From assembly GCA_017474455.1 (NCBI GenBank), contig JAFVHP010000044.1, forward strand, positions 124,001-188,000: a stretch of 64,000 bases of DNA, in the 5' to 3' direction. The stretch comes from Lachnospiraceae bacterium. GTDB lineage: Bacteria > Bacillota > Clostridia > Lachnospirales > Lachnospiraceae. Positions 20,785 through 52,363 of the stretch are shown one piece after another; position 1 is the stretch's first letter, and each line of letters begins with the position of its first letter. The position numbers and the translations under genes are program-made. The notes under the pieces are model-generated. The model did no database searches and was not told the DNA's origin. It was given only the letters and a program-made list of their open reading frames with translations.

Positions 20785-20807
20785 CTAAATACAGGCTCTT
20801 ACTTATA

Positions 20808-22712: not shown

Positions 22713-22769
22713 TGCGATCATTCCCCCCTTTATGTATCTTTGATCTTCCCGCAGATCTGTATTGCAGTC

Positions 22770-24002: not shown

Positions 24003-24047
24003 GATCGTCATTCTCCCCAAACAAATATAAAAGAGACGAGTCTATAC

Positions 24048-24713
24048 CTAAACGCGTCTCGCCAGAAGATTGATCCATCGTTCCGCCGCCCTGTCGGGCC
24101 TGACGTCATAGGTGGACCAGGTCTCAAATACCGGCATCGATCCCATATCCTGCCAGACCTCTGCCAGCGTTTCCTCCGTATAATCGCTGAACAACCGCCC
24201 GTTCCGTATCCCCTCAAAATCTCCATACTTCAAAGAAGCATACAGAACGCCGTTCTTCTTCAAAGCCGCCGCGATCTTCGGCAGCACCGTCTCTTTCAAT
24301 TCAGCTTTCGGCAGGTGCAGAAGCGAAGCGCAGGCCCAGATCCCGTCGTACTTCTCCGTCTCATCCAGGTCCCGGAACAGCATCTGCCGCACCTGAACGC
24401 CGGCATATTCCGAAGCCCTCCGGCACAGCTCCGCCGAGCCGTCGATCGCGTCTACAGCATAGCCCTTCTCCAGGAAGATCTTCGTATCCCTGCCGGAGCC
24501 GCAGCCCAGGTCCAGGATGCATCCGTTGTCCGGAACATGCGCAAGAAAGCGCGCCCGCGCATCCGACATATCCGCCGGCATACTGCCGGCGATGAAGGAG
24601 TCGGTGTTGGTGTTGTAATATTCGAGGGTCTGGGTCTGCCAGCCCGGCACACCATTATTCTGCATATCCATATCCTGTACCGTCATATTGTAAGCTCTGA
24701 TGTCAGATTCCAT
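24048..24713 (-). CDS. Class I SAM-dependent methyltransferase
   Basis: The 221-residue protein has the SAM-binding motif ILDLGCGSGRDTKIFLEKGY at about residues 74-93, motif II VDAIDGSAELCRRA and a following IWACASLLHLP. It is of the small-molecule/tellurite-resistance-like methyltransferase type; the substrate cannot be inferred. It is GC-rich like the host region, unlike the A+T-rich genes after it. Confidence 0.85.
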   Translation of the reverse strand: MESDIRAYNMTVQDMDMQNNGVPGWQTQTLEYYNTNTDSFIAGSMPADMSDARARFLAHVPDNGCILDLGCGSGRDTKIFLEKGYAVDAIDGSAELCRRASEYAGVQVRQMLFRDLDETEKYDGIWACASLLHLPKAELKETVLPKIAAALKKNGVLYASLKYGDFEGIRNGRLFSDYTEETLAEVWQDMGSMPVFETWSTYDVRPDRAAERWINLLARRV

Positions 24714-24775
24714 ATCCTTGAAAGTTCCTCATAGCCATAATAACAGTATTAGGACGGATTTACTATTATCTCAAC

Positions 24776-25726
24776 TCATCCATCTTTAAGGCACAGCTGC
24801 TCAATCCATTCTCTTTTCTGAATCACCTCCAGCCACTCAGATGGAATACTGTCATACCCATAATAGAGGCCTGCCAGACCGCCGGCTATTGCTCCTACTG
24901 TATCTGCATCACCGGCTAAGTTTACTGCTCTCAATAATGCTTCTCTGAAATCTCCTGTATTGATAACTGACCAGATGGCAGCTTCCAGAGAATCCACGAT
25001 ATATCCGCTGCTCCTGATCGAATCTTCGGAACATTTTGAAAACACAGTCAGATCCTTTAACCGTTCATAGTATGCCAATTCCCCGATATTCCGGCGGTCC
25101 TGCATATAGTATGAGAACCCCCTGTCCATGCCCTGCTGCATTCTTTCCATCAATGTTCCGGATCCATCAAGAATGGAAGAAACACAGAAGTAATACAGTC
25201 CGCAGCCTATACGGCTGCGCAGATGATCGTGTGTCAATCCTGATCCCGTATGCACAAGCTTCAGCGCAGCCTCCGGATCAAGATGCCGGCTGTATGCATA
25301 CAGACAAAATGGCATGATCCGCATCAAAGAGCCGTTCCCATTTGAATCCTCGTAGGTCCTTCCACATGAAGAACAGTCATGATGATCTTCATAATCTTCA
25401 ATAGCCAGTGAACAGGTGTTGCCAATATCGAACGCTTTTCCATAGGGTGTATAAGCGCCATCCTCATACCAGCTGATAAACCGGGTCATGATATCATCAA
25501 AGTCCACTTCACCTGATTCCCGGATACTGTCCAACGCGGCCAGTGTCATGCTGCTGTCATCCGTCCATGTCCCTACAGGCATATCGTATGTGCCATGCCC
25601 TTCCATTCCGGTTACAGGCCCGCGTTCTCTTAATCTCTCCCGTGAGAGGAACTGTACAGGGCAGCCAAGAGCATCCCCTGTTACAACTCCCATGATCCCA
25701 TCAAGCCAAATGTTTCTCTCGCTCAT
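24776..25726 (-). CDS. ADP-ribosylglycohydrolase (DraG family)
   Basis: The 316-residue protein has the two metal-binding motifs of the family: TDDSS (residues 55-59) after GVVTGDALGCPVQF, and AGDADTVGAIAGGLAG with D273 and D275. It should use two Mg2+/Mn2+ ions to remove ADP-ribose from protein (Arg, Ser) or small acceptors. GGAGGG precedes the ATG. It is next to a VWA gene and near a macro-domain gene on the same strand, suggesting shared work in ADP-ribose turnover. Confidence 0.9.
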   Translation of the reverse strand: MSERNIWLDGIMGVVTGDALGCPVQFLSRERLRERGPVTGMEGHGTYDMPVGTWTDDSSMTLAALDSIRESGEVDFDDIMTRFISWYEDGAYTPYGKAFDIGNTCSLAIEDYEDHHDCSSCGRTYEDSNGNGSLMRIMPFCLYAYSRHLDPEAALKLVHTGSGLTHDHLRSRIGCGLYYFCVSSILDGSGTLMERMQQGMDRGFSYYMQDRRNIGELAYYERLKDLTVFSKCSEDSIRSSGYIVDSLEAAIWSVINTGDFREALLRAVNLAGDADTVGAIAGGLAGLYYGYDSIPSEWLEVIQKREWIEQLCLKDG

Positions 25727-25773
25727 GATAATTCCCTCCCTTTATTTCCTTTCCGAGAAGATCGTCTGTTACA

Positions 25774-26448
25774 TCAATCGCGATGCCTCTTCTTATAATC
25801 CTCTCTGATCGGCATAAGAAGCTCCTCATCATCCAGTGCTTTTGACATGGCTCCTGGAGTTACAGATGCTCTCGCATAGCTCACAGCTCTTTCCATTACA
25901 TTAAAATTCAGTCTGGTCCCCATGCCGTCATGCTCATATCTCACAGCTCTGTTCGCCGCGATCCCAAATCTGCCGGCTTCCCGGACTGCATCGATATTTG
26001 CTCCGAGGAACATAAACTCCCACTGATACTTTTCTTTCTCATGCTCGATCATCTGACGGACCATATCGTAGCTGTAGCTGCAGGATGCATTTTCCATCCC
26101 GTCCGTTGTTATGATAAAAAGCGTTTTCTCCGGCACATCTTCTTCACGGGCATATTTATGGACATTCCCTATGTGATGGATAGCCCCTCCCACAGCATCC
26201 AGAAGGGCTGTGCATCCTCTTACGTAATATTGCCTGTCATTCATGGATTCAACCTTCCGGATATCCATACGGTCATAGATCACTTCAGAAACATCATCAA
26301 AAAGAACGACCGAAACCAACGCCTCCCCTTCTTCTTTCTTTTGCTTCTCTATCAAACTGTTGAAACCACCGATCGTATCCGCCTCAAGGCCGGACATGGA
26401 TCCGCTCCTGTCAAGAATAAATACCAGTTCTGTTAAACCTTTCTTCAT
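25774..26448 (-). CDS. von Willebrand factor A domain protein
   Basis: The start at 26448 (MKKGLTELVFILDRSGSM) follows a GAGGA site; the frame runs upstream without coding character. The whole 224-residue protein is a VWA fold with the metal-ion-dependent adhesion site: D13-R-S15-G-S17, the Thr in RGCTALLDAVG and Asp in TTDGMENAS. No signal peptide, so it is cytoplasmic. Cytoplasmic VWA proteins of this type are often found beside macro-domain and ADP-ribosylglycohydrolase genes; their partner is unknown. The final stretch SKALDDEELLMPIREDYKK is conserved-looking but has no assigned role. Confidence 0.88.
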   Translation of the reverse strand: MKKGLTELVFILDRSGSMSGLEADTIGGFNSLIEKQKKEEGEALVSVVLFDDVSEVIYDRMDIRKVESMNDRQYYVRGCTALLDAVGGAIHHIGNVHKYAREEDVPEKTLFIITTDGMENASCSYSYDMVRQMIEHEKEKYQWEFMFLGANIDAVREAGRFGIAANRAVRYEHDGMGTRLNFNVMERAVSYARASVTPGAMSKALDDEELLMPIREDYKKRHRD

Positions 26449-26524
26449 TTCTGTCCTCACTTTCTGCTGCCCTGCAGCGCTTTCCTGTCTGATGTGAGGC
26501 CAGTATAACAATCCGGAACTGAAA

Positions 26525-26549
26525 AACGGTCGCCCGAAAGGCGACCGTT
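26525..26549 (-). terminator. Terminator after the macro-domain gene
   Basis: On the minus strand a 10-bp stem (AACGGTCGCC with its complement) with a 5-base loop is followed by TTTTT. It sits between the macro-domain stop (26562) and the VWA start (26448), so the VWA and glycohydrolase genes probably need their own promoter or partial readthrough. Confidence 0.8.
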
Positions 26550-26561
26550 ACATTGACTGTA

Positions 26562-27746
26562 TTATGAAATGATACATGGCAGTCCATGCTCTTCAAGCTG
26601 TATATCCAATTCGATCATGTCATATATACCATGCTCTATAAAGTATGAAAAGATAATGTCCGTTTTATCACATGGAGACAAAGCGTAGCCTGCCCGCGAA
26701 AGAAGGTCTTTCGACTCATCCAGGTTCAGCATTGCGCCGATGCAAAGGCAAAGTGCAGTCAGTTTCTGAGGGTGATAGTCCGGGTTATTCTTGATCTTGG
26801 AGAATACTTTCTTATCTACGATCGCCCTTTTATAAACATCCGAATTCTCAAGCCCTTTTTCATTGATCAAATAGAAAAGGTACTGAGGGAAAGTATCTGA
26901 CATATGTGCCATACGCTCAGCGATCTTCTGCTCTATCTCCTCGATCGCAAAGTCCTCGTCCGCAGGTAAGCCCGGAAGCGGGGCTTCATTCTTATCAAAG
27001 AAAGATCCGGTCTCCGCTCCCGCCAAAGACGGCAGTGCAGCCGTATCTCCGGCTTCTTCTCTTCTGGCATTTTTTGACTTTCCCCAAAGTCTTTTTGTTC
27101 TTATCTCTTTCCGATAGGTATTCTGCTGCAAAGAGGGTTCATGATCAGGATATGCCGGGCTAGTAGTAGCAGAGGGATAAAAATCCGCTCCGTATTCTTC
27201 CAGATTTTTTTCCTGTACATAATTCTGATCAATGTATGCTTCCAGATCCGGGTACAGGTTCTTCCCCATCCTGGCAGCATTTTCATCAAATACGACCAGG
27301 TAGATCTGCATCTCCGAGTTCAGAAGAAACGCATGGATCTCATCGACAGCGATCCTCATGCCTTCTTCCTTCGGATATCCGAATCCGCCTGTTGAAATGA
27401 GAGGGAATGCGATGGATGTAATTCCATGTTCTGCTGCCAGCGCAAGACTTTTCCGATAACAGGACCGTAAGAGCTCTTCCTCCCCATGCTGTCCATCGAT
27501 ATAGAGCGGACTCACCGCGTGAATGATATATCTTGTCGGAAGCTTAAATGCGGGTGTAATGAAAGCACCGCCTTCTTCTACGTAACCGATGTTTTCTTTA
27601 CGATAAGAAAGAAGCTCTTCATACCCTGCCGCTTCATATATGGCATGGTCACATCCGGTACCGACCGTGGGATGATCATTGGCGGTATTGACTATCGCCT
27701 CCGTATTCATTTTTGTTATGTCATTACGAACAATTTTGAAAGGCAT
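26562..27746 (-). CDS. Macro-domain protein with C-terminal helical domain
   Basis: Residues 1-160 are a macro domain that binds or hydrolyses ADP-ribose: IVRNDITKMNTEAIVNTAND, TVGTGCDHAIYEAAG and the phosphate loop PLISTGGFGYPKEEG. The usual GGGG(V) loop is GTGC here. Residues about 165-270 are a low-complexity linker, and residues about 275-394 are a helical domain (QYLFYLINEKGLENSDVYKR ending DIQLEEHGLPCIIS) seen in many Firmicute macro proteins, possibly a helix-turn-helix-like module. The 394-residue gene ends at its own terminator. Confidence 0.85.
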   Translation of the reverse strand: MPFKIVRNDITKMNTEAIVNTANDHPTVGTGCDHAIYEAAGYEELLSYRKENIGYVEEGGAFITPAFKLPTRYIIHAVSPLYIDGQHGEEELLRSCYRKSLALAAEHGITSIAFPLISTGGFGYPKEEGMRIAVDEIHAFLLNSEMQIYLVVFDENAARMGKNLYPDLEAYIDQNYVQEKNLEEYGADFYPSATTSPAYPDHEPSLQQNTYRKEIRTKRLWGKSKNARREEAGDTAALPSLAGAETGSFFDKNEAPLPGLPADEDFAIEEIEQKIAERMAHMSDTFPQYLFYLINEKGLENSDVYKRAIVDKKVFSKIKNNPDYHPQKLTALCLCIGAMLNLDESKDLLSRAGYALSPCDKTDIIFSYFIEHGIYDMIELDIQLEEHGLPCIIS

Positions 27747-27768
27747 AATCCTCGTGACCCTTAATCAG

Positions 27769-27789
27769 CAAAAATCAAGTTTTTCTTGA
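27769..27789 (-). terminator. Possible weak terminator after the HIRAN operon
   Basis: On the minus strand TCAAG and CTTGA form a 5-bp stem around AAAAA, followed by a run of T. It lies just after the stop of the last HIRAN gene and before the macro-domain gene. The stem is short, so termination may be leaky. Confidence 0.45.
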
Positions 27790-27795
27790 ATATCG

Positions 27796-29571
27796 TCAGT
27801 CTCGCATATAAATATTAATGTATATCTCGATCCAGGTGTCCTCTTCATCCAGATTCTCACCTATGTCACCGCTTGCAACTATGCCAAACAGCTCTTTTCC
27901 TGCATCCATGAGATGATTCAGCGGCTCATTCCTATGTTTCGGTATATACCCCAGTTTTTCACCCCCTGGGTCCAGCACAAGAATCGCTTTGCTATCATAT
28001 TTGTTCATTGTTTCCATGCGGAGCGTTACCTGATCACCGACCTTTAGCGCCTTGGCAAGAGAATGAATGTTTTCAACGTGCATGGCACCATTGATCATCG
28101 TCGTCATCAGGAGAATCTCCCGGGAAAACGGCAGCGGCGTATCTATGCCATTTGTGCTGTAACTGCCGGCTGCTATACTCCCGAACTCCTCACCTTCCTC
28201 AAGGGTCCCGGCAACAGCATAGGCAGAATCCTGATTACCCTTTATCCTTGGCGTCAGCTCTTTGGTTACCTTATACTCACCGGTATTATCGTCCAGCTCA
28301 ACGAACAGATCTCCCGTTTCTTCTATTACGTTGTCATCCTCATCCAGAATAACAAACCGGAGGGCAACCGACTCTACTTCATCGATCTCATATTCTTCAA
28401 AGATTTCGGAATAAAACTCCAGGGTATTCTGTACTTCTTCGTCTTCGTAAACTCTATAAGTAACGTCAATTGGCAGTTCTTCATCCGTATCATAGTTGAA
28501 TCCGCAAAACGGCGTTTCTATCCCATTGCACTCGCTCTTTACAAGACGCACTCTGTAAGCCTTTTCTGACTTTACATCCGTAATAAGGCTCATATCTACA
28601 TAGACTACGGGATCATATCCCGCGACGTTCATATAATCAAGAATAATCCTGACCGTCTGACCATCGAAAAGAATCTGGCTCGTCGTATTTTCGGAAGTCG
28701 CTTCAAAGCAGGCATCCAGACCTTTTATATGACCTCTACGGCTGATGACCAGATTGCGGAATTCCTGAAACTCTTCCCTTGTGCAGTCTTCTCCAATATC
28801 TACGGCAACACTTAGAATATCGACTATTCTCAGGCTTTTGCCGTCGAGCCAGGCTTCAAAAATATCTGTACTCTCCCGGAAGATCCTGATCACGTCCTCG
28901 TTTGGCAGATCGGTGGTCATAACTGCCATCCATGTGTTATAGGGAACCGGCTTTAAAACATCATGGACAGCAGCGAATTTTCTCATAATAGCGACAACGA
29001 CATCCAACCGGCCCATCCTGGAAAGCCGTTTAAAACTGATCATAAACTCTTCGGACATCCGGTTGATATTCGGTGCCCCGCCTTTCCCTTTGGGTTTAGG
29101 GAAAGTCGTATAAACATCCGCGTCCTCCAGCAGACGGGCTATATAATCCTCTTCCTCTACGCAGTTCAGATCGATTTTATAAAGTTCGCCATACTTTAAT
29201 TCATCCACATCTCTCTGCGGTAGATATGGCATCATCCGATAAACCAGCTGCTTAACGTTTTCCCGCATCTGATCTGTTATATCTTTCTTATCCCAGTTGT
29301 CCTTTTCATAATAATCATATTCATGGATCAGCCATATCAGGGTAAGTGCATTTAGGCGTCCCCAGCCATTCAGATCCTCATAGCCTTCATACTCTTTTGT
29401 CCCCGCCATCATATCAACGAGCTGGGCTGCTCTGTCGACATCACCCATTTTCACACAGGCGGATATCATTTCGAATCGCTGAATATAACTATTCGGAGAA
29501 TCCTGAAAAAAGTACTTCGCATTCTCCTCATCCATAGCCATTCTATAGTTGTCTTTCAGCCGCTCGTTCAC
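27796..29571 (-). CDS. HIRAN-domain protein with large N-terminal region
   Basis: The 591-residue protein starts at a GTG (MNERLKDNYRMAMDEEN) with only a weak ribosome site. Residues 1-300 are helical, repeat-like and not recognised (for example IQRFEMISACVKMGDVDRAAQ). Residues about 300-450 are an acidic beta-rich region. Residues about 455-590 hold a HIRAN domain: PLPFSREILLM, LKVGDQVTLRMETMNKYDSK, AILVLDPGGEKLGYIPK. HIRAN domains bind 3' ends of single-stranded DNA or stalled-fork structures and are usually attached to helicases. This protein lacks a helicase domain but sits in an operon with one. It ends in YMRD, as does its short paralogue upstream. Confidence 0.82.
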   Translation of the reverse strand: MNERLKDNYRMAMDEENAKYFFQDSPNSYIQRFEMISACVKMGDVDRAAQLVDMMAGTKEYEGYEDLNGWGRLNALTLIWLIHEYDYYEKDNWDKKDITDQMRENVKQLVYRMMPYLPQRDVDELKYGELYKIDLNCVEEEDYIARLLEDADVYTTFPKPKGKGGAPNINRMSEEFMISFKRLSRMGRLDVVVAIMRKFAAVHDVLKPVPYNTWMAVMTTDLPNEDVIRIFRESTDIFEAWLDGKSLRIVDILSVAVDIGEDCTREEFQEFRNLVISRRGHIKGLDACFEATSENTTSQILFDGQTVRIILDYMNVAGYDPVVYVDMSLITDVKSEKAYRVRLVKSECNGIETPFCGFNYDTDEELPIDVTYRVYEDEEVQNTLEFYSEIFEEYEIDEVESVALRFVILDEDDNVIEETGDLFVELDDNTGEYKVTKELTPRIKGNQDSAYAVAGTLEEGEEFGSIAAGSYSTNGIDTPLPFSREILLMTTMINGAMHVENIHSLAKALKVGDQVTLRMETMNKYDSKAILVLDPGGEKLGYIPKHRNEPLNHLMDAGKELFGIVASGDIGENLDEEDTWIEIYINIYMRD

Positions 29572-29619
29572 TTCTTACTATGCCCCGGCAATCTCTTTAT
29601 CTAAGGGTCGCTTATCCCA

Positions 29620-30039
29620 TCAGTCGCGCATATACAGGTCTATATCTATCTCAACCCGCTGATCCTTCTCTTTCAAATCATCTCCGATATCACCGCCCTG
29701 TACGATTCCATACAGTTCTTTCCCGGCCGCCAGGAGGTTATAAGGCACTTCCTCGATATCTATCGGTAAATAGCCTAGTTTCTTATTATGTGAATCAAGT
29801 ATCAGAACGGCCGTATTATTTTCTTTATTCTCAGGATCCAAATGAAATGTCACCTGTTCCCCTACCAGAAGTTCCTTTGCCAGCTGGTATATATTCCTGA
29901 CCGTGTGGTGCCAATCTGTCTTAACTTTCATCAAAAAGATATCTCTGGAAAACGGCAGCTGTGTTTCAATGCCGTTTTTGCTGAGAATACTGGCCGTCAA
30001 AGCATCATTCTGAACATTACTAAGATCGTTCCCGCCCAT
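29620..30039 (-). CDS. Stand-alone HIRAN-domain protein
   Basis: The 139-residue protein is a single HIRAN domain: GIETQLPFSRDIFLM, LLVGEQVTFHLDPENKENNT, AVLILDSHNKKLGYLP and LLAAGKELYGIVQGGDIGDD. It is clearly paralogous to the C-terminus of the downstream 591-residue protein, and both end in YMRD. Within HIRAN proteins it would be expected to recognise damaged or branched DNA. It lies 48 bases before the larger HIRAN gene and 11 bases after the J-domain gene in the same operon. Confidence 0.8.
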   Translation of the reverse strand: MGGNDLSNVQNDALTASILSKNGIETQLPFSRDIFLMKVKTDWHHTVRNIYQLAKELLVGEQVTFHLDPENKENNTAVLILDSHNKKLGYLPIDIEEVPYNLLAAGKELYGIVQGGDIGDDLKEKDQRVEIDIDLYMRD

Positions 30040-30050
30040 GTACGTATACC

Positions 30051-31034
30051 TTACGAACTCTTTTTCTTACGCTGTTCCGCTTCCTGCTCATTCCTTTCAG
30101 CGACCTTACTCAGCTCTATGATTTTATTCTGCAATTCAATGATCTTATCCGCGCATTCCTTATTAAATTCAGTCAGTTCTGCCTGTTTCCTAGCAACTGC
30201 CTCTTCGTCTGCGAGAAAATCCTTCTGGTTGTAAGGGAAGCTGTTCTTGATCTTCTCAATATGCTCCATGAGGATGATCACCTTTTCAGCAAGCTTATCC
30301 CTTAAGTCACGGAGCCTTGCCAGATCATCCAGCGTATCACTGTACTTTTCTGTAAGCTCTGTGTCATCCAGCCGATCCGCAATCTCCCGCAGCGTCTCGA
30401 GATCACCTTCCGCGTATGCCTTTTGCGCTCTGCTAAGAAGTTCCAATTCGGCTTCGGTAATATCCGGATTCACATCTGGATGCAGCTTCTTCACGATATA
30501 CCTGTAGAGCCGCTTCAGCTCTTCCAAGGGACTCTCATGAATGTCTTCCGTGCCAGCTCCACCGGCATCCGCTTTTTCATTTACCTCTGATTCTGTCTGG
30601 TCTTTCGATTTACGCACTTCTTCAGACCGCTGCTCGTTTTCCTGATCCTGCTTTGCGCGGCGTTTCGCGTAATCGCTGTCGCGCTTCATCTCTTCCGCTT
30701 TTTTATGAAGATCTTCTTCGTATTCCTTATATTCTTCTTCTACGCGTTTTTGAACATCTTCATATTTCGCAGCTTCCTGTCTGTTAATGGCCGCCTGCAA
30801 AAGCTCTATCGCGCGTTTCAGTCTGGCAATCTCCAATCGATATGCCAGTGCCTGGTATTCGAGATTGCCGATCTTCTGGTCATACTCCGCCCTGAGTTCG
30901 ACGCATACGTGATTCTCCAGGTCATCGATCTCTTCTGCCAAGGCGGCTGTCTTGAGTTCGAGTTCCTGGATTTCCTCTAATAGTTTCTTATATTCACTTA
31001 CGACCGGAACGAGGTCGGTTTGTCTTCTTTTCAC
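30051..31034 (-). CDS. Coiled-coil protein with internal J domain
   Basis: The 327-residue protein starts at a GTG (MKRRQTDLVPVVSEYKKLLE). Residues about 10-150 are a long coiled coil rich in Glu, Lys and Arg. Residues about 165-235 contain a J-domain signature, LKRLYRYIVKKLHPDVNPD, with H185-P186-D187, then ELLSRAQKAYAEGDLETLRE. The C-terminal 90 residues are again coiled coil. J domains stimulate DnaK ATPase, so this may bring an Hsp70 to the operon's proteins; alternatively the fold is used only structurally. It lies between the DUF2325-like gene (7-base gap) and the HIRAN gene. Confidence 0.82.
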   Translation of the reverse strand: MKRRQTDLVPVVSEYKKLLEEIQELELKTAALAEEIDDLENHVCVELRAEYDQKIGNLEYQALAYRLEIARLKRAIELLQAAINRQEAAKYEDVQKRVEEEYKEYEEDLHKKAEEMKRDSDYAKRRAKQDQENEQRSEEVRKSKDQTESEVNEKADAGGAGTEDIHESPLEELKRLYRYIVKKLHPDVNPDITEAELELLSRAQKAYAEGDLETLREIADRLDDTELTEKYSDTLDDLARLRDLRDKLAEKVIILMEHIEKIKNSFPYNQKDFLADEEAVARKQAELTEFNKECADKIIELQNKIIELSKVAERNEQEAEQRKKKSS

Positions 31035-31041
31035 AGTACTC

Positions 31042-32739
31042 TTACGCTATCGACTGCAGATACACAGCCATTTTCATCATGGCATCAAATATTGAGGCAT
31101 TGGAAATCTTCAGCGCACCTGACTTGTCCCTTGCTTCCTCAATATGAGGATAACCTTCTTCTGTTTTCATCTGTTCAATAAAGCTGGAATATCCTTTAGT
31201 ATCTTTCGCTTTATGTGGACAGGGGCCAACAATAATACCTGCATACTTACTATCCCATTGGATTATCCGAGAAGAATAGGACTTCACATCATCATAGTCT
31301 AATACAAACTCCAATTGATCCTTTTCAAAGACAAACCCCATGCTTTTAAGCTTGCCTCTAAGGTGAGATTCCTTCGTTTCAGAGCCGCCAATAATAAGAA
31401 TCTTCTTATTTCTTTGTAAGTAATTGTTAACCTTAAGGATATCAAGCAGCGAAGATTGGACAGCAGTGGCTGTCGGTTTATCCGTTAACTCACGGTCTTC
31501 ACGAGAAACTTCATCTTTTGTGGATCTTGAGGCTCTCTCTTCCGCTTCCTTAATAGCTGCTTCTGCTGCCTCGATCTGTGTCCTTTGACTTTCGATAACA
31601 GTATGAAGCTTCCGGTTTTCCTCCTGGTGTTGAAGTAAGCTGTTTTCAAGCTCTGATATCGTCGACTGATGCTGATTGATTTCAGTCTGGAGTCTTTTGA
31701 TGTGCCTTTGGCTCACAGTTAATGCATTTTTCAGATCCTCAACATCAGTCCGAAGTTCACCAATTAAAGCCGCATTTTCTTCCAACTGTTTTCGCGTTGT
31801 TTCACTGCCGGAAAGCTGACGTTCTAAAGCCTGGCACCTTGCCTCTATGGTATACTCATGCTCTTTGGCAATTTTCAGTTTTTCTTTCTGGTGAGCTACA
31901 TTATTCTCAAGTGAACTCTTCTCACTCTGAAGAACATCTATTTGTTTAAGTTGGTCTTCAGTAACTCTCTTATTCTGTTCAATCGTAAGGGCTTGTTTAT
32001 CTACGATAGCCTGCAGCTCAATCAGGCGCTTGTTCAGTTCAACAGCCATCTGTTCATAGACCGAACCATCCTTAGTTTCAAGTTCGATCTCCGATTCATC
32101 CGGCCAATCAGGTACAGCAGGAATAATTCCAAGAGCTGCTTTGAAGTTAAGACATTCTCTGGAATCTGCTATTCCAAGATCTTCCGCTTTTGCCAGAATA
32201 GCTTCTTTATCGACTCCAGAAACATCTTTTGTTCTTGCAAGCTCACTGATACGGTTTAGAAACTCTAAGTACAGAAACCTTCTGCGGCTTACTGATTCCA
32301 GATCTGATTCATTAATTCCATCTATCCTCTTAAAGAGGAGTTTCGGAACTTCAGCCCAATACAGAATATTCTCTGTATGAATCTGCGCAGATGCATAATA
32401 CAGATTCACCCAGTCCGGAAGATTATCCTCATTGGCATCAAGAATCATCAGCTTGTTGATGGCTTCATCATATTTCCGAAACTGAAAATAAATCCTTGCT
32501 ATCCGCTGGCTTGCAGTAAGGAAGCATTCCCGATTCACACGGATATTCAAGCCTAATGCAAATGCCTTTTCGTAAGCATCCATACTGAGCTTGTCAGCCT
32601 CACCTAATGCCTGTTCATACATGAAGCTGCCTATCCAATAAGCATCATCCCAGACTTCTGCTGTTTCGATATCCTGCTTTATGATGTCCACATCCGGCAT
32701 TTCTGCCTTCTGTTTTAATAGTGCCTCATAATTATGCAT
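31042..32739 (-). CDS. TPR-like/coiled-coil protein with DUF2325-like C-terminal domain
   Basis: The 565-residue protein begins MHNYEALLKQKAEMPDVDII with helical TPR-like repeats (to about residue 220), followed by a coiled coil of about 200 residues. The last 120 residues form a Rossmann-like domain: KKILIIGGSETKESHLRGKL, then GIIVGPCPHKAKDTKGYSS. This resembles DUF2325, a domain found in proteins near defence and mobile elements, but the central HxxxK pattern differs from the usual form. GGGG precedes the ATG. It follows the 560-residue unknown gene by 15 bases in the helicase/HIRAN operon. Confidence 0.75.
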   Translation of the reverse strand: MHNYEALLKQKAEMPDVDIIKQDIETAEVWDDAYWIGSFMYEQALGEADKLSMDAYEKAFALGLNIRVNRECFLTASQRIARIYFQFRKYDEAINKLMILDANEDNLPDWVNLYYASAQIHTENILYWAEVPKLLFKRIDGINESDLESVSRRRFLYLEFLNRISELARTKDVSGVDKEAILAKAEDLGIADSRECLNFKAALGIIPAVPDWPDESEIELETKDGSVYEQMAVELNKRLIELQAIVDKQALTIEQNKRVTEDQLKQIDVLQSEKSSLENNVAHQKEKLKIAKEHEYTIEARCQALERQLSGSETTRKQLEENAALIGELRTDVEDLKNALTVSQRHIKRLQTEINQHQSTISELENSLLQHQEENRKLHTVIESQRTQIEAAEAAIKEAEERASRSTKDEVSREDRELTDKPTATAVQSSLLDILKVNNYLQRNKKILIIGGSETKESHLRGKLKSMGFVFEKDQLEFVLDYDDVKSYSSRIIQWDSKYAGIIVGPCPHKAKDTKGYSSFIEQMKTEEGYPHIEEARDKSGALKISNASIFDAMMKMAVYLQSIA

Positions 32740-32754
32740 TCTTTTTCCCCGGAG

Positions 32755-34437
32755 TTATTTGAAGGCTTTCTTCCAGTAATCTGGATCTATACTGAAGACA
32801 AACTCAAATCTATTCTTATCTTCAACGTAATCTGTGAACAACTTTTCCTTATTAGGCACAGATACCTTACAGTCTTTCACCAGCCGCTCAAGGTCTTTTC
32901 TGATACTGGCATTCAATTCATCTCCCTCCCTGATTTCTGGAAGAGAAATCGATGCCACGCTGTGTGCATATCCCTTACTCTCTGCTTTCTTCTTACTGCC
33001 CACTTCCACTTCAGCAGCTTCAAGCAGTTTTGCATATACCGCATCACCCAAACTCTCTTTAGATATGGCAAGCAGCTCTTCCCGTAAGTCCCCGGCTGTA
33101 ATGATGCGTTCTTCCGTTAACGAGATTCCGAGCACTGCACCATTCTCCACTTCAACCTCAGGCATAGTTACAGCCAGTGAAGGCAGTATCTGAGCTTCCT
33201 TGTCGTTAACAAATGCCTCAATGAACTTCCACAGCTGCTGATTATCCTTACCAAAATCTTCGCCGGGCATTCCATACAATCCATTCAAAGCACCCCAGAG
33301 AACTGCAGCACGGCGTTTTGTAAGCAAATCTGCGTGATATACTTCCAGTGACTCTAAGAACAGTTCATACCGATTTGGATTCTTTGCCACAAATAAGAGT
33401 GCCTTCAGTGCATCTATCGGTTCCGGAATGCTTGCCATAATTTCTTCCGGCGCCTTATCAGATACATCTGATATGAGCCTTTCGATTTCAGCAATCACCT
33501 GGCGTATAATTTTGGCGTCGCCAGGTTTTTCACATTCTGCCGCCACCTTTTCACTTATGGAATCCAAGAGAACAGCAATTTGTTCCGGCTGTTTCTGTGT
33601 GTTATACGGCTGCTCTTTTAAAGTATTGAAGATGTGATTATAGATTATCTGATTAAACTCGCCATTCTGCCTTGTTGTTTCACCGGCCAGGCAGAGTCTT
33701 TCCTCATTATCTTTATTTTTAACTTCGACATAATGCGGCAGAACAGCAGATATTGCTGCATCCGTTAATCCAAGCAGTTGCTGCATCCTGCTGTCTATGT
33801 TGAAAAGATACCGGTCATACTGCCATCTCTTCGTTCCATTTATAAAATTCAAAAGTACAGCTCTCTGTTTTTCCCTTTCTCTTATTGCAGAAATAATACT
33901 CTCTTCGTCGAGACCGCATGCGTTGATTATCTTATCTTCTTCCGGTTCTATAGCGAATTCTTCAGAAAACTCCTCGGGAAGCAGCCCATACTTATTCACT
34001 GGATACCAATAATCCGATGATGGCCTTGAAAACATATCTTGATCATCCTGTGTATCGAAATAAATCTTTTCAACGCGCGAGAATGGAATCTCACCGATCA
34101 GGTAAGCACCGATATGTTTGTTCGGATCATAGTCTGACAGTTTTTCGAGAGAGTATGCCAGGCTTGATTCATTATTGCTTACAAGAACAGCAAAGCCATC
34201 GTCATCCTGTATTTCCGAAAGCTCCAAAGTCACCGGATAAACAAATTCCGGCTCTGCAATCCCCTGTTCACGTGATTTTCGATCCAGCTTTTTATGCGTG
34301 ACAAACAGAAAACAGTCTGATGCAGTCGCGATGGTACGATATCTCTTTATATCCTTTATAATCCGGTCTGGCGCTATGATGCTGCGTCCCAGGAAATCAA
34401 ACATTACATTCTTATTTGTGTAAAAATAGAGTTTCAT
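32755..34437 (-). CDS. Uncharacterised 560-residue protein of the helicase/HIRAN operon
   Basis: The start at 34437 (MKLYFYTNKNVMFDFLG) is preferred because GAGGAG lies eight bases upstream; a GTG at 34452 overlapping the helicase stop is the alternative. I recognise no domain. The first 150 residues look like a compact alpha/beta domain (FLFVTHKKLDRKSREQG, FAVLVSNNESSLAYSLEKL), and the rest is helical with acidic segments. The family resembles the uncharacterised partner proteins found with UvrD-like helicases in defence islands, but I cannot name it. It is directly coupled to the helicase gene. Confidence 0.7.
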   Translation of the reverse strand: MKLYFYTNKNVMFDFLGRSIIAPDRIIKDIKRYRTIATASDCFLFVTHKKLDRKSREQGIAEPEFVYPVTLELSEIQDDDGFAVLVSNNESSLAYSLEKLSDYDPNKHIGAYLIGEIPFSRVEKIYFDTQDDQDMFSRPSSDYWYPVNKYGLLPEEFSEEFAIEPEEDKIINACGLDEESIISAIREREKQRAVLLNFINGTKRWQYDRYLFNIDSRMQQLLGLTDAAISAVLPHYVEVKNKDNEERLCLAGETTRQNGEFNQIIYNHIFNTLKEQPYNTQKQPEQIAVLLDSISEKVAAECEKPGDAKIIRQVIAEIERLISDVSDKAPEEIMASIPEPIDALKALLFVAKNPNRYELFLESLEVYHADLLTKRRAAVLWGALNGLYGMPGEDFGKDNQQLWKFIEAFVNDKEAQILPSLAVTMPEVEVENGAVLGISLTEERIITAGDLREELLAISKESLGDAVYAKLLEAAEVEVGSKKKAESKGYAHSVASISLPEIREGDELNASIRKDLERLVKDCKVSVPNKEKLFTDYVEDKNRFEFVFSIDPDYWKKAFK

Positions 34438-34448
34438 GCGATAACTCC

Positions 34449-35558
34449 TCACCTCCAGTCAACCATGCTTCTATGAGTGATCAGAGCGGTCATCGTATCG
34501 ACTTTCCCAAGGCTCGGTATCTCATTCCAATAGAAGAGATATAATTCGTTTATCGGCCTGGTAACTGCAACATAGACTCTGTTCATATTCACAGTGTCGT
34601 TTTCCTTCATTTCTATTTTGTCAAACATTGGAAGCAAAACAATGTCAAACTCAAGCCCCTTCATTGTCCCGTAAGACAGAATCTTGACTCCCGGTTTACT
34701 AAAATCGATTGTATTCTGCGTTTTAGGCTTATGCATCTGGATAGTCACATCACTTGGTAAAAGCTTTCGAAGGGAAGCGTATGTATTACTTACAGCTTTC
34801 CAATTGGTAATAATGCCTATGCTCTTTTCTTTATTTCGTTTGATAATATCTGCCATCTTGCGATTCTGATCATCAAAATCACGAGACGCACATTTAATGA
34901 TTATCGGCTTCCTTCCAGGAACATCGGAAGCTGCCGGTTCTCCATCCTTGCAATATAGAGCTGACAGATCTCTGATTGGCTTTGTGTTGCGAAAATTTCG
35001 AGTCAATTTGTACGGGGATTCTACACACAGTGTTTTTATAGCATCGAATACATTTGTCTTACCTTCTTCTACTGCCTGGTTTGGATCAATAAAACACGTC
35101 ATGTTATCTGAAAGTCTTTTCAGGATTTTTAGAAGCTCAATAGGGAAATCCTGCGCTTCATCGATAATTACGTGGGCATATATCTTCCCAATCCCGGACA
35201 ATTCAGTGGCGATTGCTGTCCAGTTAAAGTTGTCGTTTCTATCCTTTGGGATATAACCAAGTCTATATTCTCTGTACATATCATTCACCCACTGATGATA
35301 TGTCTCAACTTTGACATTTTTGTAATAGTTCCCCTGCACCGCAGTGGAAAGAAAACGCATCAAGGGATTATTGAAGACCAGCATCAAAACTGTCTTGCCA
35401 CTGAATATCTGGCTCGCCTGCCCTGCTCTGTAAATCGCCATCACGGTTTTACCCGTTCCCGGCGCGCCTTTAATCACCCAGTCTCTCGTGATGGGAAGAT
35501 TTATAATATCCAGCTGTTCTTCACTTAAATCTCCACCATTCGGCAGTTTGAAGCCCAT
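34449..35558 (-). CDS. UvrD/Rep-like superfamily 1 helicase, compact
   Basis: The 369-residue protein has the Q-like motif LSEEQLDIINLP, Walker A GAPGTGKT (residues 31-38), Walker B DEAQDFP (D133), a motif III-like TCFIDPNQAVEEG, and the C-terminal VYVAVTRPINELYLFYW. It is about half the length of UvrD and appears to lack the 1B and 2B subdomains, so it may be a reduced ATPase/translocase. GGAGG precedes the ATG. It is the first gene of the six-gene HIRAN operon and is followed with a short overlap by the 560-residue unknown. Confidence 0.85.
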   Translation of the reverse strand: MGFKLPNGGDLSEEQLDIINLPITRDWVIKGAPGTGKTVMAIYRAGQASQIFSGKTVLMLVFNNPLMRFLSTAVQGNYYKNVKVETYHQWVNDMYREYRLGYIPKDRNDNFNWTAIATELSGIGKIYAHVIIDEAQDFPIELLKILKRLSDNMTCFIDPNQAVEEGKTNVFDAIKTLCVESPYKLTRNFRNTKPIRDLSALYCKDGEPAASDVPGRKPIIIKCASRDFDDQNRKMADIIKRNKEKSIGIITNWKAVSNTYASLRKLLPSDVTIQMHKPKTQNTIDFSKPGVKILSYGTMKGLEFDIVLLPMFDKIEMKENDTVNMNRVYVAVTRPINELYLFYWNEIPSLGKVDTMTALITHRSMVDWR

Positions 35559-35750: not shown

Positions 35751-37886
35751 CTAGATTTCCTCAATCCCAATACTCTTCAAGTATCGATATGTTCCATCGT
35801 AATATTCCGGCAAACGCGTACTGTCTTCCCAGAAACCGCTGGCGGTTCTATTTGCATTTCCTTCTGGAACACAGATCACCATTCCAGCCCTTGCCCTGGT
35901 AAGAAGAACACGATAAGCGTTAAGCATGTATTTGAGCTTATCCTGCTTGCTTTCGCTATTGCCAAATTGCTCATTCCATTTCGTATTTCCATTAAATGTA
36001 TAGAAGTGCCAACCTCCGTTTTCACAACGCATGTCAGCATCCCACAGCACGCACGTATAATCCAATTCCAGTCCCTGTACCTGTATCTCTGTAGCCGCAT
36101 CTTCCAGATAGTTAGAAGATCTGGTATCAACTTTATCCTCGAGGAACCAATGGACTGCGTTTTCATCACCAGAAGGTAAGATATGGATTGCCAACGGCTT
36201 AAATCTTGCGGCTTCCTTCGTCACTAAAACTCCAGTTCGTTCCGAGCCCCTCACCTTGCTATGAAGCCACTTCCTGGCTTTTTCCATATTTCTTGTCAGA
36301 ACAATCGGATAGCGGTCTTTGATTTCCTGATATAGTCGGGAAGCGCTTTCGTCAAAGGCTAATAATGCGTGCACAAAAGCGGATACTTTTTCAGCCCTGT
36401 ATGAACGAAGTGAAACGCCTAGATGCAGATCTTCTGAATACCGGACGTTCGGATTGTCTGCCAACAGCTCATTGACCTTTCCCTCGGCATACTCTGCCTC
36501 TGTCAACTTCGGTGAAATATGCACTTCCCAACGCCTATATTCATTGTTTAGTGCTTTGATCCATTCCGTTATTCCGGCTTCGCCGGTGTTGATTTCCTGA
36601 CCTCCGCCAACCAGGCAGACGATAGTCGCCCAGTCCTCACGCTGATCGAGCGACCAGATCAAAAAAGCAGCCTCTGACACGGGGAAATTCGGCACTTTCA
36701 ACTTGTTGCCGTATGTTCCGCCTCTTTTCAAGTATTCAGCCAACCGCTTATGGGTCCATGAACGCTGTGCTTCATCAAAGATCGCTACATGTTCGACTTC
36801 ACCGAATCCGGCCTGTTCCATCCTCACAGCCTTCTCAGGATCGATTTCAAGAACACCGTTTTCCACAGGATTCTTTATCTTCGCCAGCATATTATCCCGA
36901 TACCGGTGAATCATCTGAATCGACTTGCCCACTTCACGGCGAGAATCAGTTAATTTCTTATCCTCGTGTTTTTCGCGTGCCTTTTTATAATTATCCTGCG
37001 CAAGCGCTTCCGTTAACACTGCCACTAAAGGACCATTTCCCGATAGGTATACTGCTCCCTCATCTTTAACCGGTTTATCCTGTCCTTGATATGTCTGTTT
37101 GATAGCTACATCAAGGCCAACCAGCGTTTTCCCTGCACCAGGGACTCCTGTCACAAAGCAGATACTTTTCTTTTGTTTTTCTTTGCTCTCTTTTATGACC
37201 TGAAGGATATAGTTAATTGTCCTATCCGTAGAAACATCATCTGCTTCATGCCGAGTGATGTCTTCCACAGAATGATTTTCATACAGTGCCCTTGCCGCCT
37301 CAACAATCGTCGGTGTAGGTGCATATGGGCTGATTATCCATCGGGAATCGATAGGTGCTTCATTCGGGAACCTATTTAACACCGCTATGATCAAATCTAA
37401 AAGATGGTCTTTGCCTGTTACTAATGGATTTACAACTTTATCGTCGTAAACAGACATCTGAATGACTGAAGAGCTATTTCTATGCTCTGTCGCCACAAGA
37501 ATTGGAACAATTACTTTTTCACGACTGAATTTATGGAAGTTTTTGAGATCCAATGCATAATCAAGAACCTGATCCACATCAGCTTCTAATATCTGAGACT
37601 CCCCGACCTTAAATTCGATGCAAAATATAATGCCTTTATACAGCAATACCGCATCTACACGCTTTCCAAGGCGAGGAATGTCATATTCGAATATTATTTG
37701 CCCGTTTCCTTCGCACCTGCATAATACTTCCTGTAGGATTGTTATTTCAGATTTCCATGCTTCTCTGGTTGTAGTACGTGCTTCACCGTGATAATTGTCA
37801 CACAGGGCTCCAAGGACCAACATAGGTGAATCAGTTATAAAAGCCAAAAAAGTATTTTCGTATAGACAGCGAGGGTTGTTATTCAT
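35751..37886 (-). CDS. PD-(D/E)XK nuclease fused to DUF2075 (schlafen-like) SF1 helicase
   Basis: The 711-residue protein starts MNNNPRCLYENTFLAFITDS. Residues about 60-115 show a restriction-endonuclease-like core: RVDAVLLYKGIIFCIEFKVGES with D78, E91 and K93, then DVDQVLDYA (Q106). Residues about 220-700 are a DUF2075-type superfamily 1 helicase: Walker A TGVPGAGKT (246-254), Walker B IFDEAQRSW (D371), and C-terminal LLTRARAGMVICVPEGN. A nuclease-translocase fusion next to BREX fits an accessory restriction effector. It has a weak ribosome site and lies 154 bases after the DUF4062 gene, so it may be a separate unit. Confidence 0.85.
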   Translation of the reverse strand: MNNNPRCLYENTFLAFITDSPMLVLGALCDNYHGEARTTTREAWKSEITILQEVLCRCEGNGQIIFEYDIPRLGKRVDAVLLYKGIIFCIEFKVGESQILEADVDQVLDYALDLKNFHKFSREKVIVPILVATEHRNSSSVIQMSVYDDKVVNPLVTGKDHLLDLIIAVLNRFPNEAPIDSRWIISPYAPTPTIVEAARALYENHSVEDITRHEADDVSTDRTINYILQVIKESKEKQKKSICFVTGVPGAGKTLVGLDVAIKQTYQGQDKPVKDEGAVYLSGNGPLVAVLTEALAQDNYKKAREKHEDKKLTDSRREVGKSIQMIHRYRDNMLAKIKNPVENGVLEIDPEKAVRMEQAGFGEVEHVAIFDEAQRSWTHKRLAEYLKRGGTYGNKLKVPNFPVSEAAFLIWSLDQREDWATIVCLVGGGQEINTGEAGITEWIKALNNEYRRWEVHISPKLTEAEYAEGKVNELLADNPNVRYSEDLHLGVSLRSYRAEKVSAFVHALLAFDESASRLYQEIKDRYPIVLTRNMEKARKWLHSKVRGSERTGVLVTKEAARFKPLAIHILPSGDENAVHWFLEDKVDTRSSNYLEDAATEIQVQGLELDYTCVLWDADMRCENGGWHFYTFNGNTKWNEQFGNSESKQDKLKYMLNAYRVLLTRARAGMVICVPEGNANRTASGFWEDSTRLPEYYDGTYRYLKSIGIEEI

Positions 37887-38985: not shown

Positions 38986-41052
38986 TTACTCCACACCCAA
39001 CGCTTTGAATACTGCATCTTCCGCACTGTTGTAGAAGACGAGGTTGAAGCAGCCTATCAGCTCTGCCGGGACAGTACCAAGGTCTGCCGCCGACGTGATC
39101 GGCAAGAGCACTTTCTTTGCTCCGCTATCAAGGCATACCTGCAGCACATTGGCGAGTTCCTCAACTTTGATCATCGTTCCGCTGATACTGATTTCACCCA
39201 GTACGGCGAGACTGCTCAGTGTCGGCTTATTTAGGGCGATAGAGCACAGTGCGATCAGCGTGGGAAGCGCTAGCTTGCCTGTCATCCCGATGCCCTGAAG
39301 ATCCTGATAATTGATGATATAGTCCTTCGTGGTCGTGCTGATGGAACCACTGATCCGATTCCCATTAGCCTTCAGGAAGTTGAATGCTGTATTGGAGGAC
39401 TCTCGCGCATCACGATCAGTGCCGATGCCGGTTCGCTCGAATTTTCCATTACCGGGCAGCATCTGGCTTTCCAGACGGAAGACACCGATCATGCCAGATT
39501 TGCCGTGGCCGATGGTATATACCTGACCAGGATTGCAGAGCCCCTCTGGGATCAGCTTGCCGCCTCCTTGCTCCGGAACGGAAACAAAATGCTCCTCAAA
39601 ACTCTCGTTATCTATGTAGGAGAAGTTGACGTCGTAGAATTCCATGCCGCCCAGCTTCTTGAGCTGCTCTTTGACACGACGGCGCATCTCCAGTGCCAGT
39701 TTCAGGATTTCTTCCAGCTGCTCTTTGGTGTACACACCGTCCGGATACAGCAGTTTGATGAGGCCGCCGACCATCTTCCTGACAGCGATGGTATCACGCT
39801 GATTCAGGTTCTTGCCAAGATGATAGAAATGGTCGAGCGCATCTCCATATTGCTCCTTCCGCAGCTCCCGGATAAACTCGGCGAGGTAGTCTGTGATGAA
39901 GCCGTAGTCATCAGTGAAGTGTTCCGGACGGAACTTCGGAATCTCCCAGCCGGGGATATAGCAGTGCATACGGTCGAGGAACGCCGTATCGGTTCCCATC
40001 TCCGGAGGGAACGGATCAAAGAGGCTGCTGGTCTTCAGGAGAACGTCCACGCTCTGATTGATGTTTCCAACAAACACCATCGAAGCGCTGGCGGCCTTTT
40101 CTTCCTTGCCACGGGCAAAGGAACCGGATGCCATGTAGTCCTTCATGATCTGGATTCCGTCTTTGTCTTTGAAGTTAATTCCGGCCACTTCATCGAAGGC
40201 GACGCAGTCCCACAGGCCAACGAGGCCAACCTGCTTCCGGGCCATGTTGTAGAACAGATTCGCCACCGTCGTCTGGCCACCGGAAACGAGGATACTGTTG
40301 GGAGAGATTTCTTTGAACAGGTGGCTTTTGCCGGTGCTTCTCGGCCCGAGTTCACACAGATTAAAGTTGTTCTCTACCAGCGGAACCATACGGAGAAAGA
40401 GCAGCCACTTTTCACGCTCGGTCAGGGTGTCCGGCTCCATGCCGATGGAACGGAGAAGGACATCCATCCACTCTTCCTTGGTGAACGATTTCCGGCCTTC
40501 TTTCAGTTCGTTGATATCCACATGGGGCATCTGGATCGGAGTGAGCTTCCGGATCTGGATCGGATTCCCGTTCTTCTTATCCTCTTCGATGTACTCGTAA
40601 TCCAGCTGAACGATGCACCAGATACCTCCGCAGAGCAGTCGGTCGAATTTTTCCGGATACTCATCAGAGATTGGAACGGTCTTCAGGCCAAGATTGGAGA
40701 ACTCTGCCTCGTACACGTCCCGCTTGATGTTCAGGCTTACCGTGATCTTGTCGATGACGGTATAGCTGCCACGGGAGCGTAGCATGGAGAGGATCTTCTG
40801 AGCCTCATCCGGGCGCACGAAATTATCAGCAAGAATCCGCTTGACGTTCTCGACGCCTTTTTCGATGACTTCTTCGTCGTCGGAGCTGCAATACTGCCCC
40901 AGCAGGAACTCAAGGACATAGACGGGTACGTTGGCCCCTTCCTTGATTTTCTTTGTGAGGTCTTTTCGGACAATCTTTCCGTCGAAGCACTGGCGGAGCT
41001 TGCCCTTGATGATTTCACGGGCATCCATCGTACCCTCTATGAACTGATCCAT
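38986..41052 (-). CDS. brxL: BREX protein BrxL (Lon-like AAA ATPase)
   Basis: The 688-residue protein starts MDQFIEGTMDAREIIKGKL after GGAGG. The AAA+ part has Walker A ELGPRSTGKSHLF (K242-S243), a Walker B-like LWDCVAFDEVAG, and a C-terminal Lon-like domain (GKLALPTLIALCSIALNKPT, SGAKKVLLPITSAADL). The Lon catalytic Ser-Lys context is not obvious, in line with known BrxL proteins, which form DNA-binding rings and need no proteolysis. BrxL is required for phage exclusion in type 1 BREX. It is the last core gene, 11 bases after pglZ. Confidence 0.93.
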   Translation of the reverse strand: MDQFIEGTMDAREIIKGKLRQCFDGKIVRKDLTKKIKEGANVPVYVLEFLLGQYCSSDDEEVIEKGVENVKRILADNFVRPDEAQKILSMLRSRGSYTVIDKITVSLNIKRDVYEAEFSNLGLKTVPISDEYPEKFDRLLCGGIWCIVQLDYEYIEEDKKNGNPIQIRKLTPIQMPHVDINELKEGRKSFTKEEWMDVLLRSIGMEPDTLTEREKWLLFLRMVPLVENNFNLCELGPRSTGKSHLFKEISPNSILVSGGQTTVANLFYNMARKQVGLVGLWDCVAFDEVAGINFKDKDGIQIMKDYMASGSFARGKEEKAASASMVFVGNINQSVDVLLKTSSLFDPFPPEMGTDTAFLDRMHCYIPGWEIPKFRPEHFTDDYGFITDYLAEFIRELRKEQYGDALDHFYHLGKNLNQRDTIAVRKMVGGLIKLLYPDGVYTKEQLEEILKLALEMRRRVKEQLKKLGGMEFYDVNFSYIDNESFEEHFVSVPEQGGGKLIPEGLCNPGQVYTIGHGKSGMIGVFRLESQMLPGNGKFERTGIGTDRDARESSNTAFNFLKANGNRISGSISTTTKDYIINYQDLQGIGMTGKLALPTLIALCSIALNKPTLSSLAVLGEISISGTMIKVEELANVLQVCLDSGAKKVLLPITSAADLGTVPAELIGCFNLVFYNSAEDAVFKALGVE

Positions 41053-41063
41053 GATGTTCCTCC

Positions 41064-43670: not shown

Positions 43671-43683
43671 TACTTCCTCCATA

Positions 43684-44709: not shown

Positions 44710-44724
44710 AAGAATTCCTCTCTA

Positions 44725-48240: not shown

Positions 48241-48251
48241 AGTGCCCTCCG

Positions 48252-51776: not shown

Positions 51777-51791
51777 GTCGCGGCTCCTTCC

Positions 51792-52349: not shown

Positions 52350-52363
52350 TGATACAATTCCTC

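Follow-up and report, generated by a model that had tools for sequence, protein, structure and literature searches.

Do six closely spaced genes beside a BREX operon form a single defence system, or were they assembled from separate modules? The question is raised by a 64,000-nucleotide stretch of contig JAFVHP010000044.1 from a Lachnospiraceae bacterium (the window, to which all positions refer), where an initial annotation had proposed one integrated system. The gene run itself was confirmed in the open reading frame (ORF) list. Six minus-strand ORFs, here called genes A to F, extend from position 35558 down to 27796 and are tightly packed, with intergenic spacings of -4, 15, 7, 11 and 48 nt in order from A to F. 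They are predicted to encode a compact superfamily 1 (SF1) helicase (A), a protein of unassigned family (B), a coiled-coil protein (C), a J-domain protein (D) and two HIRAN proteins (E and F). We favour, with modest confidence and on the basis of sequence comparison, a composite origin within a defence island: A-B-C would be an anti-phage or anti-plasmid cassette from uncharacterised DISARM-like kin, lying next to a separate J-domain-HIRAN module.

Genes A to C and the D-E pair occur apart

Beyond the window, complete A-B-C sets were found at two loci, L003 and L008, and a third locus, L004, carries A with the start of B. A scan of a species-genome collection retrieved L003, from a Lachnospiraceae metagenome-assembled genome (MAG), and L004, from a MAG titled Rhodocyclaceae. 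L008 belongs to genome G207, of another family in the same phylum, and is the same helicase locus as L006. Identity to the window's proteins is 77% (L003), 71% (L004) and 33% (L008) for A, 67% (L003) and 25% (L008/L006) for B, and 32% (L008) for C. At L003, A-B-C follows genes for a kinase, a VWA protein, a PP2C protein, a macro-domain protein and another VWA protein (L003:596-5445); an integrase-core gene stands at the contig end, and helix-turn-helix regulators and AbiEii/AbiEi lie downstream. None of D, E and F is present within the 16.7 kb of this locus examined. At L004 (positions 6100-8502) the contig ends after A and roughly 90 N-terminal residues of B. Because the GC content falls there from 0.61-0.65 to 0.48, this locus may be a cross-phylum transfer or an assembly chimaera. 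The L008 set lies about 0.6 kb from a contig end. The cassette is rare: at E<=1e-40, gene A was detected in 2 of the 398 phylum genomes searched (its own and G207), 1 of 291 genomes of the class (its own) and 1 of 120 relatives of G207 (G207 itself). The A-B-C set was not described in the literature searched.

Of 299 genomes from the window's family, 25 gave a match to protein F, the window's own among them. HIRAN regions were fetched from 19 of the 24 other genomes, the five weaker matches being left out, and a D-type J-domain gene directly adjoins the HIRAN gene in 18 of these 19 loci. None of A, B and C lies within the fetched stretches around the 18 pairs. On this distribution D-E is, in our reading, a separate and conserved J-domain-HIRAN unit found family-wide. 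The pair was not described in the literature searched. GC content also differs by block, being 0.420 in A-B-C, 0.472 in D and 0.449 in E-F, with 0.462 at 24,700-27,790 and 0.55-0.56 to the left of 19.6 kb. The initial annotation had suggested a search for the same gene order in other genomes as a check; the A-to-F order was not found at any other locus in the genome searches made here.

Gene A is related to a helicase that follows DrmA and DrmB

Gene A (34449..35558, minus strand) encodes a 369-residue protein with SF1 motifs, in line with its first description as a reduced UvrD-like helicase with Walker A lysine K37. The motifs are GAPGTGKT from residue 31, DEAQD at 133, NFRNT at 188 and GLEFD at 301; the helicase match covers residues 11-343, and no accessory domain was recognised. 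Plasmid searches with the window's A at a limit of 1e-20 returned one record, and those with the L008 helicase at 1e-15 returned four (L067-L070), from Deinococcus gobiensis, Photobacterium (two) and Streptomyces. At all four, the A-type helicase lies immediately downstream of DrmA and DrmB homologues, and the same arrangement is present in viral contig L013. PADLOC identified DrmA (6.9e-196) and DrmB (2.7e-74) at L067, and the other loci were assigned by similarity to L067. Scored with one A profile, the relatives reached 218 (L067), 185 (L013), 166 (L069), 163 (L068), 122 (L011), 121 (L012) and 111 bits (L070), the rest scoring 79 or less. Seven relatives of A outside the A-B-C loci thus exceed 100 bits, and DrmA-DrmB directly precedes five of them, the four closest included. 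An uncharacterised protein occupies the slot of B at L067, L068, L069 and L013 (not at L070).

In a helicase tree the five DrmAB-linked proteins formed one clade (support 97/96) and the window, L003 and L004 proteins another (100/100), the deeper order and the places of the L008 helicase and L011 not being resolved. When 47 plasmids with DrmB relatives were ranked, the records with an A-type helicase were the top four rows, the query's own included. We opened eight of the 43 other DrmB plasmid loci, whose gene tables are incomplete; the next gene was DrmC in three, NERD in two and another helicase in one, and two had no same-strand gene listed. That third slot is also held by DrmC in the annotated DISARM loci L104, L108 and L109. 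L067-L070 and L013 apparently represent an uncharacterised DISARM-like class in which a predicted SF1 helicase comes right after DrmB.

The window differs from DISARM and from these DISARM-like loci in that no DrmA-DrmB precedes its A gene and in that C is not found in the DISARM-like loci. Neither DrmA nor DrmB is present in the stretches of L003, L004 and L008. A DrmA query found nothing in the four A-B-C genomes (window, L003, L004 and L008), a result obtained with no positive control and from incomplete genomes. DrmB (DUF1998) and DrmC (PLD) are absent among the scanned window genes, and no genome-wide search was made for them. Among viral contigs, the window's A by itself retrieved nothing; the L013 helicase returned its own contig only, and the L067 helicase none.

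Other systems share the helicase type. The nearest tested one with a UvrD-like helicase is ARMADA. In the passages on its type II, the GajB-like UvrD helicase ArmD is encoded in a YprA-helicase operon with demonstrated anti-phage activity, carries an N-terminal RelE-like domain and has YprA, BrxHII-like and PglX-like partners (PMC12458937). The protein A of the window is instead a bare 369-residue core, and the PglX encoded beside it belongs to BREX. Because a Walker A mutation in ArmD abolished ARMADA protection, as the same passages report (PMC12458937), a catalytic role for A is plausible. Gabija GajB and HelD belong to the same SF1 superfamily as A. In contrast to Gabija, no GajA match was found in the two neighbours of A (a PDC-S41 protein and B). 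HelD is the best NCBIfam match of A, and HelD-type chains are its best matches in the PDB; the NCBIfam score of 68.3 bits is far under the curated equivalog cut-off of 419.

Genes B and C

Gene B (32755..34452, minus strand; possible ATG start at 34437) encodes 565 residues and is conserved with A. It was originally described as lacking a known family, and it likewise gave no convincing match in Pfam, PADLOC or NCBIfam. B was not found among 145 other genomes near the window's; a match in G086 sits in an unrelated long protein and was judged to be chance. A B profile matched 3 of 398 phylum genomes, namely its own, G207 and a doubtful G231 (49 residues, 6.8e-4), and there was no match in plasmid, phage or viral-contig searches. 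With the DrmAB-linked proteins in the corresponding slot, B gave a weak profile match: the score was 36.8 when four sequences were used and 24.8 when three were, the highest values among 60 column shuffles each being 21.6 and 23.6. These scores are suggestive of a relationship between gene B and the DrmAB-associated unknown protein.

Gene C (31042..32739, minus strand) encodes a 565-residue coiled-coil protein whose last 130 or so residues (31042-31440) form a conserved domain. The coiled coil was correctly anticipated. The tetratricopeptide repeats and DUF2325-like domain that had also been proposed were not confirmed; Pfam gave only sub-threshold matches, mostly to coiled coils. For the C-terminal 132 residues there were two such matches, to Latarcin (0.012) and NARF, a Rossmannoid fold (0.079). 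Built from three sequences, a profile of the C-terminal domain matched 4 of 119 genomes: its own, G207, G174 (E 3.7e-23) and G238. We rejected the G238 match as chance, since it falls within an unrelated protein. In G174 the domain is a separate 186-residue protein encoded between HsdM and a methylase-specificity fusion, within a Type I restriction-modification (RM) locus (L122:1475-11858) where HsdS and HsdR follow and a gene for a GmrSD protein adjoins. Across four sequences, 22 positions are invariant, including G-P-x-x-H, S-S and G-x-L-K, which suggests that the domain holds a ligand-binding or catalytic site. Plasmid searches with C, its L008 relative and the L122 protein gave no match, and the domain had none in phage or viral-contig searches.

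These comparisons bear on the defence role first proposed for the whole run. The DISARM-like relatives of A, the occurrence of the C domain in a Type I RM locus and the BREX and AbiE neighbours support a link of A-B-C to anti-phage defence, as a prediction from gene content and context; they do not extend it to a single six-gene system.

The J-domain and HIRAN genes

Gene D (30051..31034, minus strand) encodes a coiled-coil protein with the HPD motif, the defining feature of J-domain proteins, at residues 185-187. Its Pfam DnaJ match of 21.5 bits is under the curated cut-off of 27.8. All 17 of the D proteins aligned, that of the window among them, carry HPD, so that the identification of D as a J-domain protein stands. 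Gene E (29620..30039, minus strand) encodes a stand-alone HIRAN protein of 139 residues, and gene F (27796..29571, minus strand) a 455-residue N-terminal region followed by a HIRAN domain. Both had been called HIRAN proteins, and both pass the Pfam cut-off of 24.7 bits (E 29.4, F 43.5).

In work on HLTF, the N-x-[YF]-D ligand motif acts in 3'-end binding by the HIRAN domain. F keeps this motif as NKYD, which aligns with NPYD of HLTF; in E it is lost (NKEN). Like F, all 16 other HIRAN domains compared retain the N and D, and 15 of them the aromatic residue as well, a count that leaves out the L048 row (a wrong-frame ORF) and the HIRAN of L055. Because the two HIRAN domains of the window are 48% identical, E and F look like duplicates, of which F has retained the site. 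The HIRAN of F matches that of lp_0118 (3k2y) at 1e-10 and that of HLTF weakly (0.7-0.97), with NxYD kept; the window's HIRAN differs from both in being paired with a J-domain protein. The N-terminal region of F has one partial relative, a 134-residue protein with 37% identity over 75 residues. This protein (L066:8825-9229) has a KPxGKGGAP segment in common with the N-terminal region of F.

Of the 18 loci with the D-E pair, 11 have a TPR/Sel1 gene next to it and 5 have a WYL regulator no more than about 3 kb away. The J-domain-HIRAN arrangement with TPR/Sel1 and WYL neighbours recurs within the window's family at L053, L054, L055, L056 and L061. Ten neighbour or pair proteins were scanned; they include SbcC at one locus and enzymes of sugar metabolism at two others. 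A mainly core genomic context, which the initial annotation had named as evidence against its proposal, may thus apply to D-E, judging from the few neighbours scanned (sugar-metabolism enzymes, TPR/Sel1, WYL and SbcC). At L065:9017-9812 the J-domain gene lies in two reading frames and is probably broken. HIRAN genes have been described beside HipA and diDNase genes, a different gene set, in the relevant part of PMC11706625; the available portion of PMC12839542 makes no mention of HIRAN, DnaJ or DUF2325.

Macro, VWA and ADP-ribosylation genes

A macro-domain gene (26562..27746, minus strand), whose product has a conserved C-terminal region, is the seventh gene of the run; it starts 49 nt past F and precedes the first strong terminator. 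That terminator-like hairpin (26549-26525, minus strand) has 11 pairs, 7 of them GC, and a T-rich tail. A weaker one lies within F (28374-28354, minus strand), and the whole region holds 21 terminator-like sites compared with 14.8 +/- 3.7 in shuffles. Next come a VWA gene (25774..26448, minus strand, with a likely ATG start at 26448) and an ADP-ribosylglycohydrolase gene identified by Pfam (24776..25726, minus strand). At L003 the relative of the macro gene lies two genes before A and that of the VWA gene directly before it. Relatives of the macro protein occur in 40 of 150 family genomes, its own included. Among 29 other macro loci, VWA adjoins in 18 and an ADP-ribosylglycohydrolase relative is near in 4; with flanks of up to 1.5 kb, none of the 29 contains A-F. 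We therefore rejected the macro protein as a dedicated partner of A-B-C, and on this distribution we take the macro gene to be a module of its own, even if it neighbours the run in the window and A-B-C at L003.

By eye, a similar GC-rich inverted repeat lies between macro and VWA in the window (26525-26549) and in L003 (about 4680-4700), which suggests that these two genes travel together. Conflict systems centred on ADP-ribosylglycohydrolase with macro and vWA parts have been described (PMC9503650), and genes matching all three of these components follow F in the window. In the section of that source on these systems neither A-B-C nor the J-domain-HIRAN pair appears. Nor are macro and VWA confined to loci with A-F. 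The kinase-VWA-PP2C set of L003 resembles a TerY-P triad with extra genes; triads alike in composition are described in the corresponding part of PMC11090510.

Island setting

The main ORFs are all on the minus strand down to 19687. On the 3' side of the strong terminator, the interval 19687-26511 (minus strand) encodes, besides the VWA protein and ADP-ribosylglycohydrolase, a methyltransferase, a GTPase with DUF697, a 637-residue protein with no Pfam match and an alpha/beta hydrolase. On the other side of the run, BrxA, BrxB, BrxC, PglX, PglZ and BrxL lie at 38986-52984, a gene set that we take to be type 1 BREX. A PDC-S41/SLFN-g3 protein and a DUF4062 protein are encoded between BrxL and A, which agrees with the position after BREX and its accessory genes given at the outset. 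The former is a 711-residue SLFN-g3 helicase-domain protein (35751-37886) that matches the PADLOC candidate PDC-S41 at 7.7e-245. Within the BREX operon, a 341-residue protein encoded in the PglX/PglZ interval (43684-44709) had no PADLOC or Pfam match.

Synteny with G018 and G019, two of four same-genus relatives fetched, covers the window from 16.6 kb to 19,629 and ends there. The next 14-15 kb of G018 and G019 gave only a 29%-identity match to a MATE gene (56-57 kb) and short chance-like ones. The other two relatives, G058 and G041, have little in common with the window beyond a uxuA-type gene, and G058 also matches 4.0-5.9 kb. No tRNA gene was found within the 64-kb window.

Proposed functions and alternative explanations

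From gene content, modularity, contexts and motif states we infer a role in defence and the following steps. A would be an SF1 translocase whose closest relatives occupy the third position, behind DrmA-DrmB, and B would be its dedicated partner. C may be a coiled-coil scaffold whose C-terminal domain probably binds a ligand or a partner complex. B and C could target the motor A to foreign or replicating DNA, where A may displace or stall DNA-processing complexes. Because no nuclease was recognised in A-B-C, cutting would require another partner or an undetected activity. In the second module, HIRAN may serve as the marker of stalled forks or 3' DNA ends, where DnaK, brought in by the J domain, could remodel the bound material. 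That HIRAN senses DNA ends and that the J domain recruits Hsp70, both part of the original proposal, are plausible ideas; the stand-alone E has lost NxYD, and F probably took over the end-binding role from it. The two modules and the macro, VWA and ADP-ribosylglycohydrolase genes were probably joined by growth of the island.

Several observations weigh against this composite reading. The A-B-C association is thin, as it is seen in few loci (the window, L003, L008 and the incomplete L004), and L008 lies about 4 kb from genes read as trp, with no obvious defence island. In the DrmAB loci there is no counterpart of C, the best C-profile E value among the coding sequences tested being 0.6, and L013 has none. 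The similarity of B to the DrmAB-linked proteins is confined to one short segment (IPFSRVEKIYF), with hhalign probabilities of only 22% and 1%; the L067 slot protein gave no convincing match to those of L068, L069 and L013 either (E 0.56; phmmer 1.6-2.5 for L068 and L069). Viral contigs L011 and L012 carry none of DrmA, DrmB, B and C in the 16-17 kb examined, though their A relatives score above 100 bits. At L011, two neighbours of the A relative had no PDB match at all. At L012 (7974-11840), the A relative is followed by a DarT-family protein (29% identity to an annotated one, 4e-15) and then by an ADP-ribosylglycohydrolase relative; the other L012 neighbours are read as restriction genes. 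Finally, joint action of all six genes would fit, because they are spaced like one transcript.

It may be, then, that A-F, perhaps with the macro gene, is the single integrated system that was first proposed, in which HIRAN senses abnormal DNA ends and helicase A and DnaK remodel them. The tight spacing fits this explanation, as does the lack of a strong terminator-like site before 26549. We nevertheless consider it unlikely, since A-B-C stands without D-E-F in L003, all 18 D-E pairs lack A-B-C in the stretches fetched, the searches made here did not return the order again and GC differs between the blocks (0.420 compared with 0.449-0.472). That A-B-C is a stress or repair module, with A acting on stalled forks or polymerases in the manner of HelD or UvrD, and merely lies among defence genes, seems to us distinctly improbable. 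It would account for the HelD-type best matches of A (68 bits in NCBIfam, with the cut-off at 419) and for the genes read as trp near L008. The patchy distribution of A at E<=1e-40 (source genomes counted) argues against a module of this kind, as do the DISARM-like, Type I RM, AbiE and BREX contexts.

We give very little credence to a DarTG-like ADP-ribosylation system in which B is the ADP-ribosyltransferase and the macro protein its reversing partner. Macro and VWA do adjoin A-B-C in the window (with D-F between) and in L003, an ADP-ribosylglycohydrolase follows in the window, and in L012 the genes right after the relative of A encode a DarT-family protein and an ADP-ribosylglycohydrolase relative. 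However, B had no profile support against one DarT-family protein (E 0.17 and 0.37) or against a pair of them (score 14.4; mean 14.3 and maximum 20.5 in 40 shuffles), and the macro gene, found in 40 of 150 family genomes, accompanies A-F at none of the 29 other macro loci within flanks of up to 1.5 kb. A bolder variant of the composite, which we put forward tentatively and regard as doubtful, is that A-B-C is a stand-alone and undescribed defence system, in which the position-3 helicase of a DISARM-like class was freed from DrmA-DrmB and joined by B and by C, whose sensor or effector domain also serves in a Type I restriction locus. It would share a transcript with a J-domain-HIRAN module that passes DNA ends on to DnaK, making a jointly expanded system beside BREX.

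If the composite reading is true, part of a DISARM-like machine may be inherited without the DrmA-DrmB core that is thought to define DISARM, and B and the C-terminal domain of C would be two undescribed gene families with links to defence. The J-domain-HIRAN pair, for its part, would tie DnaK chaperoning to DNA-end recognition in bacteria.

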